A stretch of DNA of 64,000 bases from Salminus brasiliensis (Eukaryota > Chordata > Actinopteri > Characiformes > Bryconidae). Made by a program: the position numbers and the translations under genes. Below are positions 12,480-63,753 of this stretch, piece after piece. The stretch is from NCBI RefSeq assembly GCF_030463535.1, contig NC_132892.1, positions 31,123,436 to 31,187,435 of the forward strand, read 5' to 3'. The notes beneath the pieces were generated by a model. The model was not told the DNA's origin. It made no database searches and worked only from the letters and a program-made list of their open reading frames with translations. Within the stretch, counting starts at the first letter, position 1. Every line of letters starts with the position of its first letter.

Positions 12480-26565
<14,086 letters not shown>

Positions 26566-34500: not shown

Positions 34501-35165
34501 GAATCACTGAGTGTTTACTATGAGACTAATATGTACTGTATGTTGTTTGAGTGTGAGGAGCTGTGGGCCTACATATGGGCCTTTAGGGCTTAAAGGGTTA
34601 AGAAAATCAGATGTGGGCCACTTAGGCCTGCAGTGTGAGCAGTGTGTCCCTTAGTAAGGACAGCTCTAATGCAAGGACTCTCTCTCTGCCAGTGTCTCTC
34701 TGCCAGTGTCTCTCTGCCAGTGTCTCTCTGCCAGTGTCTCTCTGCCAGTGTCTCTCTGCCAGTGTCTCACCTGGAGTGTCCAAACGCCCGAACCCCTCTG
34801 GTGGTCGAGACAACGTCACTGCGATGAGGTTCTGCACGGATTCCGCTGCGGTTTCGGGCCCGGACCCTTAAACCCACCAGTGCCTGCGCCAGCCTTTCTT
34901 CATCTTCTCCTTCATCTTCTTCTTGCCCGCCGTCCTCCCCCTCCCCCTGCCCCGTTCTCCAGTCGCCCCACACCATTCGCGCCCGTTGCTCAGCATCCGG
35001 TTCTCCAGCCGAGCGGAACAGACGCCGCAGCTGCCGCAGGTTCACACCCTGGAAGATGTTGGCTGAGCCGGACTTGCGGATGCGACGCTCAGAGGCTGTG
35101 GGCCGGCAGAACGTGGGCTGGGACGGGCCGGGCAGGGCCGGGGGTGCAGCTGCGACATCCTCCAT
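31597..35165 (-). CDS. avpi1: Arginine vasopressin-induced protein 1 (two coding exons)
   Basis: AVPI1 is a small soluble protein induced by vasopressin in kidney cells and linked to MAPK signalling; its biochemical activity is not settled. Exon 35165-34771 starts MEDVAAAPP and carries the family core SGSANIFQGVNLRQLRRLF (about residues 35-53) and an acidic stretch before ERLAQALVGLRVR. It ends AFGHS with a CAG/GTGAGA donor. The second exon, 31807-31597, begins AG/A GAC CGG, is acidic, and ends DPERYLHRIRH-stop. Human AVPI1 ends SYLHQIRH. Phases agree and give 201 residues (human 147). The intervening ~3 kb intron holds three repeat blocks. Reading straight through the donor gives a stop one codon later, so an unspliced model would wrongly end at 34767. 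A 5' non-coding exon probably lies at about 37.8 kb. Confidence 0.9.
31886..32190 (+). mobile_element. Common TIR element, right part lost (copy I)
   Basis: It starts ACTGAATGGTCAGAAGTATT and follows the usual body, then breaks at CAGACAGTACTTCTTTACGG. It lies in the avpi1 coding intron. Confidence 0.8.
32190..32400 (+). repeat. ACCAGCTT-type interspersed repeat
   Basis: Short inverted and direct copies of AAGCTGGTCAACC and ACCAGCTTGTCAACC. It resembles small palindromic repeats common in fish genomes; family not assigned. Confidence 0.5.
32492..33044 (-). mobile_element. Common TIR element, complete (copy J)
   Basis: A full-length minus-orientation copy with both ends (ACACTATAAGGACAAATGTT on the left and TTCTGTCCGTATAGTGTA on the right). 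It lies in the avpi1 coding intron. Confidence 0.88.
33630..34520 (+). repeat. 21-bp tandem array 3 (avpi1 intron)
   Basis: Units of the type ATTCAGTATCCACTATGAAT; many have CCTTCAGTA in place of ATTCAGTA. Same family as at 3085, 6205 and 44080. Confidence 0.88.
34680..34768 (+). repeat. 14-bp tandem repeat abutting an avpi1 donor
   Basis: About six units of TCTCTCTGCCAGTG. On the minus strand they begin immediately after the avpi1 donor GTGAGA at 34770, so the intron opens with CACTGGCAGAGAGA repeats. Confidence 0.88.
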
Positions 35166-35173
35166 CTTCAGCA

Positions 35174-35540
35174 CCTCTGAGGGGTCAAAAGAGAAGGTAA
35201 ATGAACAAAGTTAGACAGCCTTTTCCAAACTAGCCTCTTACCATGAATGCGTGAGTGCTCTACAGTGGAAGGCGGAAACCTGGTTACCATGGTTACAGAC
35301 CTGCACGTTGTAGCTGAGCTGTCATCATGGTCTGCATTGAATTTTATTTCTAAATGTATGCGTGCATGGAGAGAACACTACCACTACCAGCTCCCACCCC
35401 AAAAATAAAGGTCCTGCAAAGGGTTCTTTGTAGAACAACCAATAGGGGAACCATGTTGGGTTCTATAAAGAACCATTTCTGTGAATAACCTATAAATTGG
35501 TAAAGAACTTCTTTAAACCTTTATAAAGTTCTACCCACAT
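35174..35540 (-). other. avpi1 intron 1, proximal part
   Basis: It includes an ostariophysan-like repeat at 35400-35525 built on GGTTCT/AGAACC words (GGGTTCTTTGTAGAACAACC). No exon seen. Confidence 0.45.
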
Positions 35541-56805: not shown

Positions 56806-58957
56806 GGTTTTACGGTTTTCTGCTGATGATGGTGTGTATGCTGTACACCGCACCTGTGGGCTGGAGCCTATCTCTGATCAACAGCGCCCTCTTCCTGTGG
56901 AACCGAGACTTCTGCAGAGGTCAGTCTACACACCCTCTTTAGAAACAATAAACAGTCATTTAAGAGTGGGAGTGTCTAAAGCGTAAGTCCCGCCCCTTTT
57001 TCCTGCTCATTTTTTTAGGGCTTTACTCAGCCAAGGTTTTCCTGAGACAGGTGGAAAATCCCTCACATCTCTTGCGTTACTATAGTAACGACAACACATC
57101 CGTCCAGTTTAGACTGTAATCACAGAAATAGGAATCAGGGAAATGGGAACAAACATACCAACAAACAACACCTCAAAACTCTTAAATAGAAAAGGCGGTT
57201 CTCTGAAGAACCACAACAACTCAAAGAATCATTTGGACGCTTAAAAGGTTCTTCACATCGGTGGAATTTCTTTTAGACAGCACCAGAAGGTTCCAGTATC
57301 GGTCAGGTTGTCAAAGAAGCCTTTTTTCAGAACTATATAGAAGCCCTACTGGTTATTGAGAGACTGCTGTTCCCAGGAAAGACAGTAAATGAGAGACACA
57401 TAGAGGAGAGTGAGGGACGTCCCGGCAGGGGTGTTACACTCTAATGCACTCACTCATCACTCTCCTCATTGATCTCGCACAGATTGACATACTGTGGACT
57501 CCCCCCTCCCCCCCCCCTCTCCCTGCAGTTGTGCTGCAGCTGAAGCGGGTTTTACACTCGTCTCCATCACAGCCTGCAGAGGGAGACACTGAGAAGAGTG
57601 AAACAGAACCGGGCAACTTACCGGACCGGACCCCCACACCCACCAGTCTGGAGGTGAGAGAGAAAACAAGGACAACAATGGAGGGAGAGAGAGGGGACAT
57701 GGGAAATTGAGCATGAGGACAAGGGTAAAGTAAAGTAGAGATGGAGAAAGAGGACAACATGATAGCAAGAGAGGAGACAAGGAAAGAGAAAGAAAGAGAG
57801 TGTGATCAAGTACAAATTGAAGGGGACAGAAAGGGGGACAAATTAAAGAGACAGAAGACATAGAGAAATGAGGGCGGGAGGAGACGAGAGAGAAAGGGGA
57901 CAAGGAATGAGAGAGACAGGTGGGGGGAAGGGAGAGGACAAATTAAAGAGACAGAAGACAGGAAAGTGAGGGAGGGCAGAGGGGAAAAAGGACAAAGGAA
58001 AGAGAAGATAAAAGGGAGCAAATGGGCAAAGAGGAAAGAGAAGGAGACAGAGGTTAGAGAGGACAAAGGAAACAGAAAGGGACAATGAAAAGAGAGAGGA
58101 CAAAGGAAAGGGAGACAAAATTAAAGAGACAGAAGACAGGAAAGTGAGGGAGGGCAGAGGGGAAAAAGAGGACAAAGGAAAGAGAAGATAAAAGGGTTGC
58201 TCCCTTTTATCTTCTCTTTCCTTTGTCCTCTTTTGGCCAAAGAGGAAAGAGAAGGACACAGAGGTTAGAGAGGACAAATGAAACAGAAAGGGACAATGAA
58301 AAGAGAGAGGACAAAGAAAAGCAAAGGAGAGCGTGGGAAGAAAGAAGGGACACTAGAGAGAGAGAGTGATCGAGTGGTGAGTTCTGTCTCTTTGCAGGAT
58401 CTCTCACCTGGAAGTGTTGAAGAGGCGGAGGAGGCGGAGCCTGATGACGAGTTTAAAGATGCCATAGAGGTACACCTGCCCCTCCCCCTTCTCTCTCTTT
58501 CCCTCTTTTCCTCTCTCTCCCCATCTCTCTCTCTCTCTCTCTCTCTCTCTTATGTGCTGTGTCTGACTTGTTCTCCTATCTCTGCTGTCTGCCTGCGTAA
58601 GGAAAACCAGCTGGCCCTGCAGGTGAGTAGCTCCCTCTAGAGGATTGGAGGAGCACTTCAACCTCGAGTGTAAACCTCCCAGTGTTCTAGATAGGTTTTA
58701 ATGTTTTTAATATAATAACAATGAGATATAAGAAATAATCGAGACGCTGAGTTTCCCAAAAGCATCGTAGCACATAGCTGATTCTCACAGGGTTAAGCGA
58801 GCATCACATTGAATACTTTCACTTTCTCTCTCTCTCTGCCTGTTAAGAGGATCCTAAAATAAAGAAGCTTTGGGGAAACTGGGCCCTGATTTGTAGCGAC
58901 TTCAGTCACTAATAGCAGCCACTAACTCCCATCCTGCCTAGGTCATAGCTTAGCATG

Positions 58958-58994
<37 letters not shown>

Positions 58995-59495
58995 ATGTAA
59001 AATAATGCATTCTTCTAAGCTGGAGAAGCTACAAAAACAGATTGCTTCTTTGATTTGATGAGAACCAGCTTCTTTATCTCCACCTATTCAGCCTACCACA
59101 GTTTAGCCACGCCCACTCACACGGCAGTCCTCAGGAGTGGTTCAGCTCTGGGTGCTTTTTGAATGAGGCACAGTGACAGGGCAACCAATCAGAATAGAGC
59201 CGTGCTAAAGGTCCACCTCCAGACCCTCTGATACTACCTTTCAGTCTCTGAAGGACTCTGATTAATTGATCAGTTGATAAATTAATCCATACTAACTATC
59301 CAGTACTTATAGTAGTAACAGCACTAGGTTAAGTGTGTGTGTGTGTGTGTGTGTGTAGTTAAGTAGCTCACCTCTTTGCTTTGCTCTCAAATGAATCACA
59401 GCTGGCTTTTGTGGTGAGTAGCTGCTGGTTCAGTCTGATTTGATAATCTTTTCCATTCATGTAAATGACGATACGAAAATCTGCACTCTTGCATG

Positions 59496-59549
<54 letters not shown>

Positions 59550-62500
59550 CCTGCACGTAAGTATTCTACCTATTCTGAGCATGTGCACCAAGTTGCAGAG
59601 AATGATGATGAGTGATCTTGGTGAGTGAAATCTGGTCTAAATATCTGATATTTATTTGAATGCTGTTGATCCAAAAATCTGCTGAATTTTAAATATTATT
59701 CTATAATATTCTAGATTTAAGATCATTTCACTTACTGAAGTGTGTTGTTTGCAGTGTGTGAGTGTGTGTACTGCATCTGTGAATGGGTGTCCATGTTTAA
59801 AGTTGTTATTCAACTCACGGAGGCACTTCTCATTTGTGTGCATGAGTGTTGTTTGTGTGTATTTATTTTTTAGAATTGTTTATTTTGTGTGGATTATTTT
59901 GTAATAGGAAATATTACAAAATATGTATTTTAAAAAATCATAATGTTCAGTCATTTTAAACGTGATTTAGATATTTATGTATATATTATTTCATTTTATT
60001 TATTTATTATTATTTTTAAGACATTTGCATTTCCCCTTTAAGTGGTTTATATAATTGACATGTCCTTGCCCCACCCACAAATGCATTGTTACATTGTTTA
60101 ATAGCAACTGTTGCTACATTAGACAAGCTTTACAGATCTCTGACCCGAATCCCATTCAACACATTTTTTTGGGTTTTTTGTATTCAAATATGCCAAGAAA
60201 AATAGTATATTTAATTTAATTGGTATTTATTTATTTATTTTTGGTGTGTAAACAGAGTGAGTGGTTGTTTTGTAATTGTTTTTTAATCTGCTTAGTTTCG
60301 ATTAGCTACGTTAGCACAGTCCAGTTTCCCATTAGTCTCAATAGACTTTTTGCTGACGTTCTGTAAAGCATGTCTTAACCCAGCTGCAGTATTTGTGGGC
60401 GGGGCAAGGACAAGTCAGTTCCATATGTAAACGCCCCCCCCCCCCCCCCCCTTTTTGAATATAGGTGTTGCCTGCAGTAATCGGGCTGACCAAAGCCCTG
60501 TGGAGACGCATAGCTCATAAGGTGCCCCTCCCACTCCGTCAGTCATCTGTTCCGGGTGTTCTAACTAAGCCTCTTCCAAGCCTTTCCCTCGTTTTATTGG
60601 CTAAAACTCACAATGATGTCACAATGGTGGTGGCTTGGTAACCCAGGAATACCGGGCTCTAATTGGTCCCCATGTTCCACCTCTTTGGTGTAGAGTTCAT
60701 TGCGAGAGCTACGATGTTACATGGGTTGTGTGAAGAAAACTGAGAAAATCATAACGGGCGGTGCCATATTTAGTGGGCTAAAAGCTTCTTTTAAAGGAAT
60801 ACTCCAGCAAGTTTCAACACAGCCTCCATGCGCTGTAGAGGTGGGCAATATGGCGGTACTAATGAGCGGTATGCTCTTCTGGACGTGTTGTGGATATTGT
60901 CAACACTGGCCAATTGTTTCCTGTTTGATTGGACGCCGGGCAGCAAATTCTGAATGAAAACAGCTGGCTGATGTGCATTGATTTAGACATGTTGTTAGCA
61001 CCGTAGCACCATGCTAATTCCTTAACTTCTCAGCATTAACCTAAAAAAGCAAACTTTAGACACCAAATATGACAATCAGCCAAGACAGGTTTAGGGCCTG
61101 GAGTTTGCTTCGTTAGTTTTACACTGGTGCTACAAGGCTAACGTAGCTAAGAAGTAATGGAAGATTAGCATCCAGCTAGCCTTATATTAACTGCAACTGC
61201 GAGGATGTCGGCTACATGAGCCAGGGTCAAAATGCCTTAATAAAATAAAGTCCCTGTAGAGAAGAAGTACTGCCAATAGATTAGGAGCACTCTCTGGAGC
61301 AGATAATAAACATCATGACCCCATGGCACCATGCTATAGAGGGGTATAAATAAAGCCCCCCAGTATTGAGAAGCTGTGGAGCAGTGGAAGAACTACTGTG
61401 ATCTCTGGAATGATGGATGGTGGAGCTCCATCCAGTACTTGGTGGGGTGGTGATCATCATCAACCAACATCCTGACCTCACTAACGCTCTTGTTGCTGAA
61501 TGATCAATCAAATCCTCACAGCAATGCTACTCCTAAATGAGGTAGAAAGCCTTCTTCCTTGGACAGTAGAGACTGCTCCTCCAACAAAAGCAACTCTGAT
61601 GATTATTATTACAGTATAATAAATAAGCAGGTGTCCCAATACTTTTGTCCATATAAGACAGGCATTGTTTTATTGTGGAAATGTCTATAACAACTATGAA
61701 TATAATATTGGTGCCATATCGCCCACCCCTAACATTTGGTGTCAGGGGAAAGTTGAGGGGGTCGTTCTCTGCACAGCACAGATATAAAATCAGAGATAAT
61801 GTTGAAAGATGAATATTCCTTTAAGTTTTTACAGTTTATATTAATTTAAACAGCTAATACAGACATCGCCCGCTACATATGGTGCCTGTAACACAAACGC
61901 TAACATCCGAAATTGATCTCTCAGTTAGAGGAACCTCCACACTGCCTTGGCTTGAGCTTTTCAGTTTGGTGCAGTTGCGCTGTAATGGCGGCAAGGCTGG
62001 ATGTTCGCAATATTACTTTAATAAATTCAAATATACATAATTTTCCTCCCTCACTTCAATGCAGTCGGTCATTAAAATCATATTTGGTTTCTGAAGTTTT
62101 GAAGCTTCTTTCGTTTTACACTGATGCTACAAAGCTAATGTAGCTAATGCATGAGCTGAGGTTGTTGTTAGCAACATTAGCTTCTCAACTAAAGAAGCAA
62201 ACTTTAGACACCAAATTTAACCAAACGGCGTCTGAAAGTAGCTTCTTTAGTTTTACACTTGAGCTAAACCGCATGATTGATTAAAGTATGCTAATTCATT
62301 GGTTGTTAGCTACATTAGCTTAATAGGTCCAGCACAAAACTAAAGAAGCAAACTTCAGACCTAATATGACCAACACAGGCTAACATCAGCCAAGGCTAAT
62401 GTTGCTAACATGCAATAGAAGCTCATACCTCACCAATGATGCTAACTGTATGATTGAGGTGTGCTAATTACATTAGCTCTTAGCTAAATTAGCTTCAAAC

Positions 62501-63753
62501 TCAAGCACAAATCTAAAGAAGCTAATTTTAGTCACCAAATTTGACACACAAACACGGTCAGCCAAGTCCAGTTTTACACTGGAGCTACGAGGCTAATGTT
62601 GCTAACAAGCAATCGAAGCTCATACCTCACCAATAGTGCTAACTGCATGATTAAAAGATGCTCATTTCATTAGTTGTTAACTACATTAGCTTTGTTGCTC
62701 CATTATAAACCTAACAAAGCAAACTTCAGACACTAAATATGACCAAATATGATCTGCCACATTTATTATTATTTAATTATTCATTTTTGAACACACCAAC
62801 ACAGTTTAGATGGAGTGTGGGATTGGATATATTGTTAGCACCAAGCTAATTCCATTACTATGTTAGCTACGTTAGCCATGCTGCTTTAGCATAAAACAAA
62901 ACAAGCTTCAGACACCAAATATGATATTATTGAGGTTTGAGGTTTGCTTCCTTAGTGTAACACTGGAGCTACAAGGCTAACGTAGCTTACAGGTATTGGA
63001 AGATTAGCATGGTGCTAATGCCTAAATTATCACACACTCTCCTCAAGCAGTGGAGGTGAGCGGTAGTCTCTAATGGACTCGATTATGTGGTTTCTGACAC
63101 TGTATGACTCGCTGTTATCTAGAACCATGGGCTGAAGTACAAGCTGAAGGGATTGTTAGCTGTTGTTAGCTATGCTAATGTACCTCAGCCCTGAGCTCAA
63201 CTACATAGGCATGTTTTGGCTGATCGACTGGATTTGAGGGAGTAAAATGTGTAAATATGATATTTATGTTTATATATATTTATTTATGACCAGTAATGAC
63301 CAGAAGACACAAAATTAGCCGTTAACTAAAGGCTGTTGGACAGACTTTCTTCTCGAGCCTGTATGCAGTTGGTGTGTGGGTTCCTCTGTGCTAAAGACTA
63401 ACCGAAGGATGCCTCTAAACGGACCCATTCAGAGAACTATACTGGATGTGGGTGCAGGACGAGCTGTTTCTGGAGGTTCTTTATTATTGGACTAAGTGGT
63501 CACCCTCTAGTGGTCACTGTCCGAACTGCACTGCATGAGTTAATATTCAAGTTGTTCTCTCTCTCTCGCTCTCTCTCTCTTTCTGTCTCCCCCTCCCTAT
63601 CTCTCCAGGACGATGAGGAATCGGTGTCCGTGTGCAGTTCTGATTATGACTCCGTATCTGATAACGGCCTGTTGAGCAGGAACGAGCCCATACGCAGCAA
63701 GGTGTCCAAGCTAACGGAGAAACTCCGCAAGCGCGTGCCCACCAACTCGACTG
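54751..63753 (+). CDS. zfyve27: Protrudin (ZFYVE27), N-terminal and central exons
   Basis: Protrudin is an ER membrane protein that binds VAP, Rab11-GDP, kinesin and PI3P, and promotes endosome transport and neurite growth. Coding exons: 54751-54959, 55156-55226, 55419-55605, 56082-56177, 56807-56919, 57529-57653, 58398-58469, 58602-58622, 63609-63753. Phases agree for 346 residues, then a split codon. Seen: FDLLDMVVSYKRM, hydrophobic segments at about 72-92 and 94-114, a hairpin segment at about 189-219 (FYGFLLMMVCMLY), acidic SVEEAEEAEP leading into the FFAT motif DDEFKDAIE (283-291), then a 7-residue microexon ENQLALQ. LSRNEPIRSKVSKLTEKLRK follows. The FYVE zinc finger is beyond the window (human protein 416 residues), so the gene is partial here only because the window stops. 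Exon 2 starts at 54722 with 29 nt of 5' UTR. Confidence 0.96.
55108..55153. repeat. (TG)n tract at zfyve27 exon 3 acceptor
   Basis: About 45 bp of (TG)n run straight into TAG at 55155, with no ordinary polypyrimidine tract. Confidence 0.9.
56273..56714 (+). mobile_element. Common TIR element (copy Q)
   Basis: Left end ATTAAATGGACAAAAGTATT and right end ACAAACATTTGGACAGAGTG. Body with small deletions. It lies in zfyve27 between exons 56177 and 56807. Confidence 0.88.
56763..56806. repeat. (GT)n(GC)n tract at a zfyve27 acceptor
   Basis: (GT)n followed by GCGCGCGCGCAG forms the acceptor of exon 56807-56919. Confidence 0.9.
57185..57355 (+). repeat. GGTTCT/AGAACC interspersed repeat
   Basis: Words GGCGGTTCTCTGAAGAACC and AAAAGGTTCTTCACATCGG resemble the element at 35400-35525. 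Family not assigned. It lies in a zfyve27 intron. Confidence 0.45.
57654..58380 (+). repeat. Polypurine intron of zfyve27 with tandem duplication
   Basis: Nearly pure purine on the plus strand (AGAGAGGACAAAGGAAA words). A block of about 180 bp containing GAGACAGAAGACAGGAAAGT occurs at about 57947 and again at about 58127. The second copy carries a perfect hairpin at 58164-58234. Long minus-strand frames are composition artefacts. Confidence 0.88.
58164..58234. repeat. Perfect 33-bp inverted repeat with 5-nt loop
   Basis: Arms 58164-58196 and 58202-58234 are exact reverse complements, with TTGCT between. The purine arm matches the surrounding tandem unit, and the pyrimidine arm is an inverted copy of it. 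Confidence 0.92.
58602..58622 (+). CDS. zfyve27: 21-nt protrudin microexon after the FFAT motif
   Basis: GAAAACCAGCTGGCCCTGCA plus a final G encodes ENQLALQ. It is flanked by the acceptor GCGTAAG and a strong GTGAGT donor. It is in frame with both neighbours, so skipping it keeps the frame. The upstream tract has three TGC triplets within about 18 nt of the acceptor. Confidence 0.8.
58623..60959 (+). other. zfyve27 intron 9, proximal part
   Basis: It contains (GT)n at 58959-58991, 59334-59356 and 59502-59544 and a 20-C run near 60433. No exon, transposon or RNA gene recognised. Confidence 0.5.
60960..63180 (+). repeat. Degenerate ~230-bp GCTAAC-rich repeat
   Basis: Phrases such as AAAGAAGCAAACTTTAGACA, CACCAAATATGACCA, GAGCTACAAGGCTAA and TTAGCTACATTAGC recur about six times, interrupted by copy R of the TIR element. 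Related single phrases occur at 4376-4440 and 48830-49030. Confidence 0.7.
61247..61658 (-). mobile_element. Common TIR element, one end lost (copy R)
   Basis: Minus orientation, from TCCCTGTAGAGAAGAAGTAC to GTCCCAATACTTTTGTCCAT. It is inserted inside the GCTAAC-rich repeat of zfyve27 intron 9. Confidence 0.87.

Follow-up and report, generated by a model that had tools for sequence, protein, structure and literature searches.

On the plus strand of the window, that is, the whole 64,000-nt stretch of Salminus brasiliensis DNA that was analysed (contig NC_132892.1), nine predicted exons of one gene lie between 54722 and 63753. The frame remains open in the joined model, which has 355 residues with a 21-nt exon and 348 without it. 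The last exon inside the window stops at 63753 and the remainder of the gene lies beyond the window, where the C-terminal FYVE domain of protrudin would be encoded. The gene is probably zfyve27, which encodes protrudin, a protein aiding the growth of nerve-cell extensions. Its joined protein presents, after an acidic tract, the FFAT-like core EFKDA-E, a protrudin feature, and in Pfam it showed a match to the reticulon-homology family PF24456 that is sub-threshold (E 0.004, 17.1 bits, cut-off 27). Since this match is only sub-threshold, the identification as zfyve27 is based on the FFAT core, the human protrudin sequence and the neighbours.

With respect to the neighbours, a PDB search with one frame near 12.6 kb gave PI4K2A (4hnd, E 4.2e-17), a frame near 22.5 kb is a piece of a PI3/PI4 kinase, and a minus-strand frame at 34.8-35.2 kb matches PF15063 and is taken here as likely avpi1; two of the four frames examined with Pfam had no match. 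The vertebrate neighbourhood of zfyve27 includes pi4k2a and avpi1, and the pi4k2a-like and avpi1-like sequences upstream are consistent with it. The scan of viral contigs with the joined protein returned seven pattern matches, none of them confirmed by tblastn, and the PDB search with the FFAT region gave no matches at E up to 1. The features of the locus are as follows.

12622-22947, plus strand: PI4K2A-like (pi4k2a-like) sequence upstream of zfyve27, from PDB and Pfam matches
34770-35210, minus strand: frame bearing PF15063, avpi1-like, upstream of zfyve27, from a Pfam match
58398-58469, plus strand: zfyve27 exon with acidic tract and FFAT-like core, from translation and gene model
58449-58469, plus strand: FFAT-like core EFKDAIE
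58470-58601, plus strand: 132-nt intron with a UC-rich tract, open in frame throughout
58555-58596, plus strand: TGC triplets starting at 58555, 58583, 58590 and 58594 (-47, -19, -12 and -8)
58595-58601, plus strand: atypical acceptor GCGTAAG, the sole one with A at -3 among nine acceptors
58602-58622, plus strand: phase-0 microexon of 21 nt encoding ENQLALQ, putatively equivalent to mammalian exon L
58623-58630, plus strand: donor GTGAGTAG after CAG (CAG/GTGAGT), with the tied top score among nine by a rough matrix
59373-59424, plus strand: TGC tract, microexon and donor in what may be a second, diverged copy, from alignment, with no AG at the matching acceptor
59402-59413, plus strand: hypothetical 12-nt exon LAFV in the second copy, with acceptor CAG at 59399-59401 and donor GTGAGT
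63609-63753, plus strand: next zfyve27 exon of the joined model, beginning DDEESVSVCSSDYDSVSDNGLLSRNEP

The exon at 58398-58469 translates to DLSPGSVEEAEEAEPDDEFKDAIE and ends in frame at DDEFKDAIE, in coordinates, frame and peptide as the first-pass annotation had read it. The letters of its core are identical to EFKDA-E of human protrudin, which, according to PMC3261905, is FFAT-like and binds VAP, and in which D4A abolishes the binding. The donor of this exon, GAG/GTACAC (58469), is the weakest among the nine donors of the model as scored with a rough matrix. In the following intron, the UC-rich tract is composed of CT runs of 10 nt and 26 nt, from -93 and -78, respectively. As this intron is open in frame, its retention would add 44 residues and would not halt translation.

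Directly after the FFAT core sits the 21-nt in-frame microexon, with codons GAA AAC CAG CTG GCC CTG CAG, flanked by AG at 58600-58601 and GT at 58623. The earlier claim of an in-frame exon of 21 nt encoding ENQLALQ holds in all these respects (coordinates, frame and peptide). Both of its junctions are of phase 0, as are those of mammalian exon L, and so the frame stays open whether the exon is included or skipped. The intron downstream is 4,986 nt long; several diverged direct-repeat families (D4-D9) around GCTAA/TTAGC motifs are found within it at 61035-63017. Predicted RNA folding around the microexon does not stand out (z -0.46), since 63 of 200 shuffles are equally or more stable.

In mouse Zfyve27, exon L, which gives the isoform protrudin-L, is 21 nt long, is located between exons VIII and IX, encodes seven residues adjoining the FFAT motif and has an atypical acceptor. 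It is neuron-specific, both SRRM4 and the 3'-most UGC are required for its inclusion, and the inclusion supports VAP binding, for which the source cites earlier work (PMC5247714). The same paper agrees with what had been claimed about mammals, that is, seven extra residues beside FFAT in the neuronal isoform and the use by SRRM4 of UGC near the acceptor. The Salminus microexon is like mouse exon L in its 21 nt, its seven residues, its place next to FFAT, a close upstream TGC and an atypical acceptor, GCGTAAG, with purines near the AG. It is unlike exon L in its peptide, in having four TGC within 50 nt against the seven described for the upstream intron region of the mouse, and in the possible second copy downstream in this window.

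The three TGC triplets reported just upstream of the acceptor are indeed there, at -19, -12 and -8, and a further one is at -47. The first three lie between the polypyrimidine tract and the acceptor, in the SRRM4-type layout. In the whole window, at least three TGC are found in 294 of the 127,960 20-mers of both strands (0.23%). When TGC was counted in the last 20 nt before the AG, for the 20 AGs of both strands that follow a tract of at least 80% pyrimidines, one AG had at least three and four had at least one. The other eight acceptors of the model have none or one TGC in -50 to -1; a single TGC occurs in four of the eight, and in three of these four it belongs to an ordinary TGCAG at -5. 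A single TGC is therefore common at other acceptors and means little, the cluster being the distinctive part. The UC tract is weakened as evidence, because CT runs of at least 8 nt also precede two of the eight other acceptors.

The arrangement is also like that of the zebrafish microexons that depend on Srrm3/4, which have an upstream UGC and a UC-rich tract, are in frame and are up to 30 nt long; for zebrafish Srrm4 microexons, UGC with a UC tract is described as canonical (both from the main text of PMC12626420). Compared with this set, the dependence of the Salminus exon on Srrm3/4 is putative. The exon itself was searched for in the main texts. There, zfyve27 has no occurrence in PMC12626420, it is named in PMC12626424 only for mouse work and in one reference, with no statement on a fish exon, and protrudin appears in PMC7821500 only among the references; no statement on this exon in fish was found in the main texts searched. 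A zebrafish exon is possibly already listed in RNA catalogues or supplementary tables.

Taken as a whole, 58602-58622 is most probably the counterpart of mammalian protrudin exon L and neurally regulated. We infer homology with exon L from the sequence, and brain-specific inclusion with an effect on VAP binding in S. brasiliensis by analogy with the mouse. In zfyve27 the exon would form an optional 21-nt cassette adjoining the FFAT-like core on its 3' side. Without Srrm3/4, the acceptor, whose polypyrimidine tract is interrupted by the TGC triplets and which has GCGTA ahead of AAG, would be too poor for use, and 58398-58469 would be spliced to 63609-63753. In neurons, Srrm3/4 acting on the UGC at -8, -12 and -19 would lead to inclusion of the microexon, and ENQLALQ would be placed between the FFAT core and the subsequent DDEE stretch.

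It is rather unlikely that the microexon, although genuine, is constitutive in this species and lacks a neuronal switch. The acceptor scores -0.6, which is weak, and three of the eight other acceptors, all of which follow GT repeats, score lower by the same rough matrices; a weak acceptor by itself is therefore no mark of an alternative exon. These lower-scoring acceptors, the strong donor at the tied top of the nine and the frame that is open with the microexon included would all suit constitutive use, but an acceptor with A at -3 and clustered TGC is how regulated neuronal microexons are arranged (PMC5247714 and PMC12626420), and mouse exon L is neuron-specific.

The proposed conservation in fish is weaker for the peptide. 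The exon agrees in position, size, phase, type of acceptor and nearby UGC, but only two of the seven residues of ENQLALQ are identical to the mammalian peptide taken for comparison. Against this mammalian peptide, 1,286 of the 83,217 stop-free 21-mers of the window (1.5%) reach the BLOSUM62 score of ENQLALQ. Among 402 mouse-zebrafish microexon pairs, length is kept in 90.3% (PMC7821500), and the protein sequence of 95 mouse-zebrafish microexons is termed highly conserved (PMC12626420), each according to the main text. A predictor that ranks microexons by likely function gave the human ZFYVE27 microexon 0.116, the lowest score among the 19 cases taken from the literature (PMC8627023), so that poor conservation may be a trait of the exon itself. 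In summary, the place and the regulation of the microexon look conserved and its residues hardly.

Because its residues have drifted and its size and position have not, the insert probably acts through spacing or general character rather than a fixed sequence. It would probably shift the acidic stretch by seven residues and add a short, largely uncharged segment; spacing and general character are thus favoured over exact residues. Net charge was rejected as a mechanism: over the first ten residues past the FFAT core it is -4 both with and without the microexon. A link of ENQLALQ to LALQ of human protrudin, which we take to have ELALQDNG in its next exon, was also rejected, because DSVS of the fish occupies the place of LALQ and the next fish exon aligns through DNGLLSRNEP, both relative to that human sequence.

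A possible second copy was spotted by eye, before statistical testing, about 790 nt downstream of the microexon (791 nt by exon register). The TGC tract, the exon and the donor of the microexon can be aligned there to TCTTTGCTTTGCTCTC..GAATCACAGCTGGCTTTTGTG/GTGAGTAGCT; the pair was also found as a direct repeat (D11, 74% over 34 nt). Its exon, 59393-59413, would encode ESQLAFV, and AAT stands in place of the acceptor AAG. For the 33-mer of exon plus donor, 24 of 33 positions match between the copies, a value reached by none of 200 dinucleotide shuffles of the intron (maximum 21), and the best match elsewhere on the plus strand for the other eight exon ends is 19-21. On the other hand, the gapped score of 36 is reached by two of 200 shuffles, and seven of the 36 donor-like 33-mers of the window match at 24 or more somewhere. 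After removal of this pair the count is five of 34, which indicates that such matches are not rare here, dispersed repeats being possible among the five. The exon letters alone match at 13 of 21 positions, and other places of the window reach 14. With these controls the second copy does not count as proven.

The second copy is likely to be either a remnant of a duplication or a fortuitous similarity, and the chance that it is spliced is small. A tandem duplication of the FFAT-adjacent microexon, with the second copy lacking the matching AG and spliced as the 12-nt exon LAFV, is quite improbable. In that case the splicing would proceed from the CAG eight bases inside the second copy, and the acidic stretch would be set off from the FFAT core by graded inserts of 0, 4, 7 or 11 residues. 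If it is spliced, the second copy would represent a neuronal microexon that has undergone duplication; no such case in protrudin is described in the titles and abstract openings searched, which cover few subscription papers and no supplements.

It is very improbable that the exon, although genuine and neuronal, has a separate origin at the same place or was replaced by its own duplicate, and would then not strictly be exon L. The two of seven residues in common with the mammalian peptide, and the slightly higher score of ESQLAFV against this peptide (10, compared with 8 for ENQLALQ), point in that direction, but place, phase and length are identical, and an independent gain of 21 nt at one and the same junction is improbable.

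The whole window was scanned for in-frame exons of 6-30 nt free of stop codons, with rough splice-site matrices and with the scores of the microexon itself as cut-offs, so that the case itself set the thresholds; the microexon was the sole candidate (one on the plus strand, none on the minus). That AG and GT merely happen to stand in this arrangement and are never used for splicing is hardly credible: microexons are short and easily imitated, and this one is predicted from genomic sequence, but neither strand has another candidate of such a score, and the microexon is in frame and of the expected length in the expected place.

The preferred reading, a neurally regulated counterpart of exon L, is mostly one of expected conservation, the kind of exon being known from the mouse. 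If inclusion in neurons only proves true, the SRRM4-protrudin switch would extend from mouse to fish and would be testable in larvae. The useful part is the poor conservation of the peptide, which predicts that spacing or general character, and not the exact residues, matters beside the FFAT motif.
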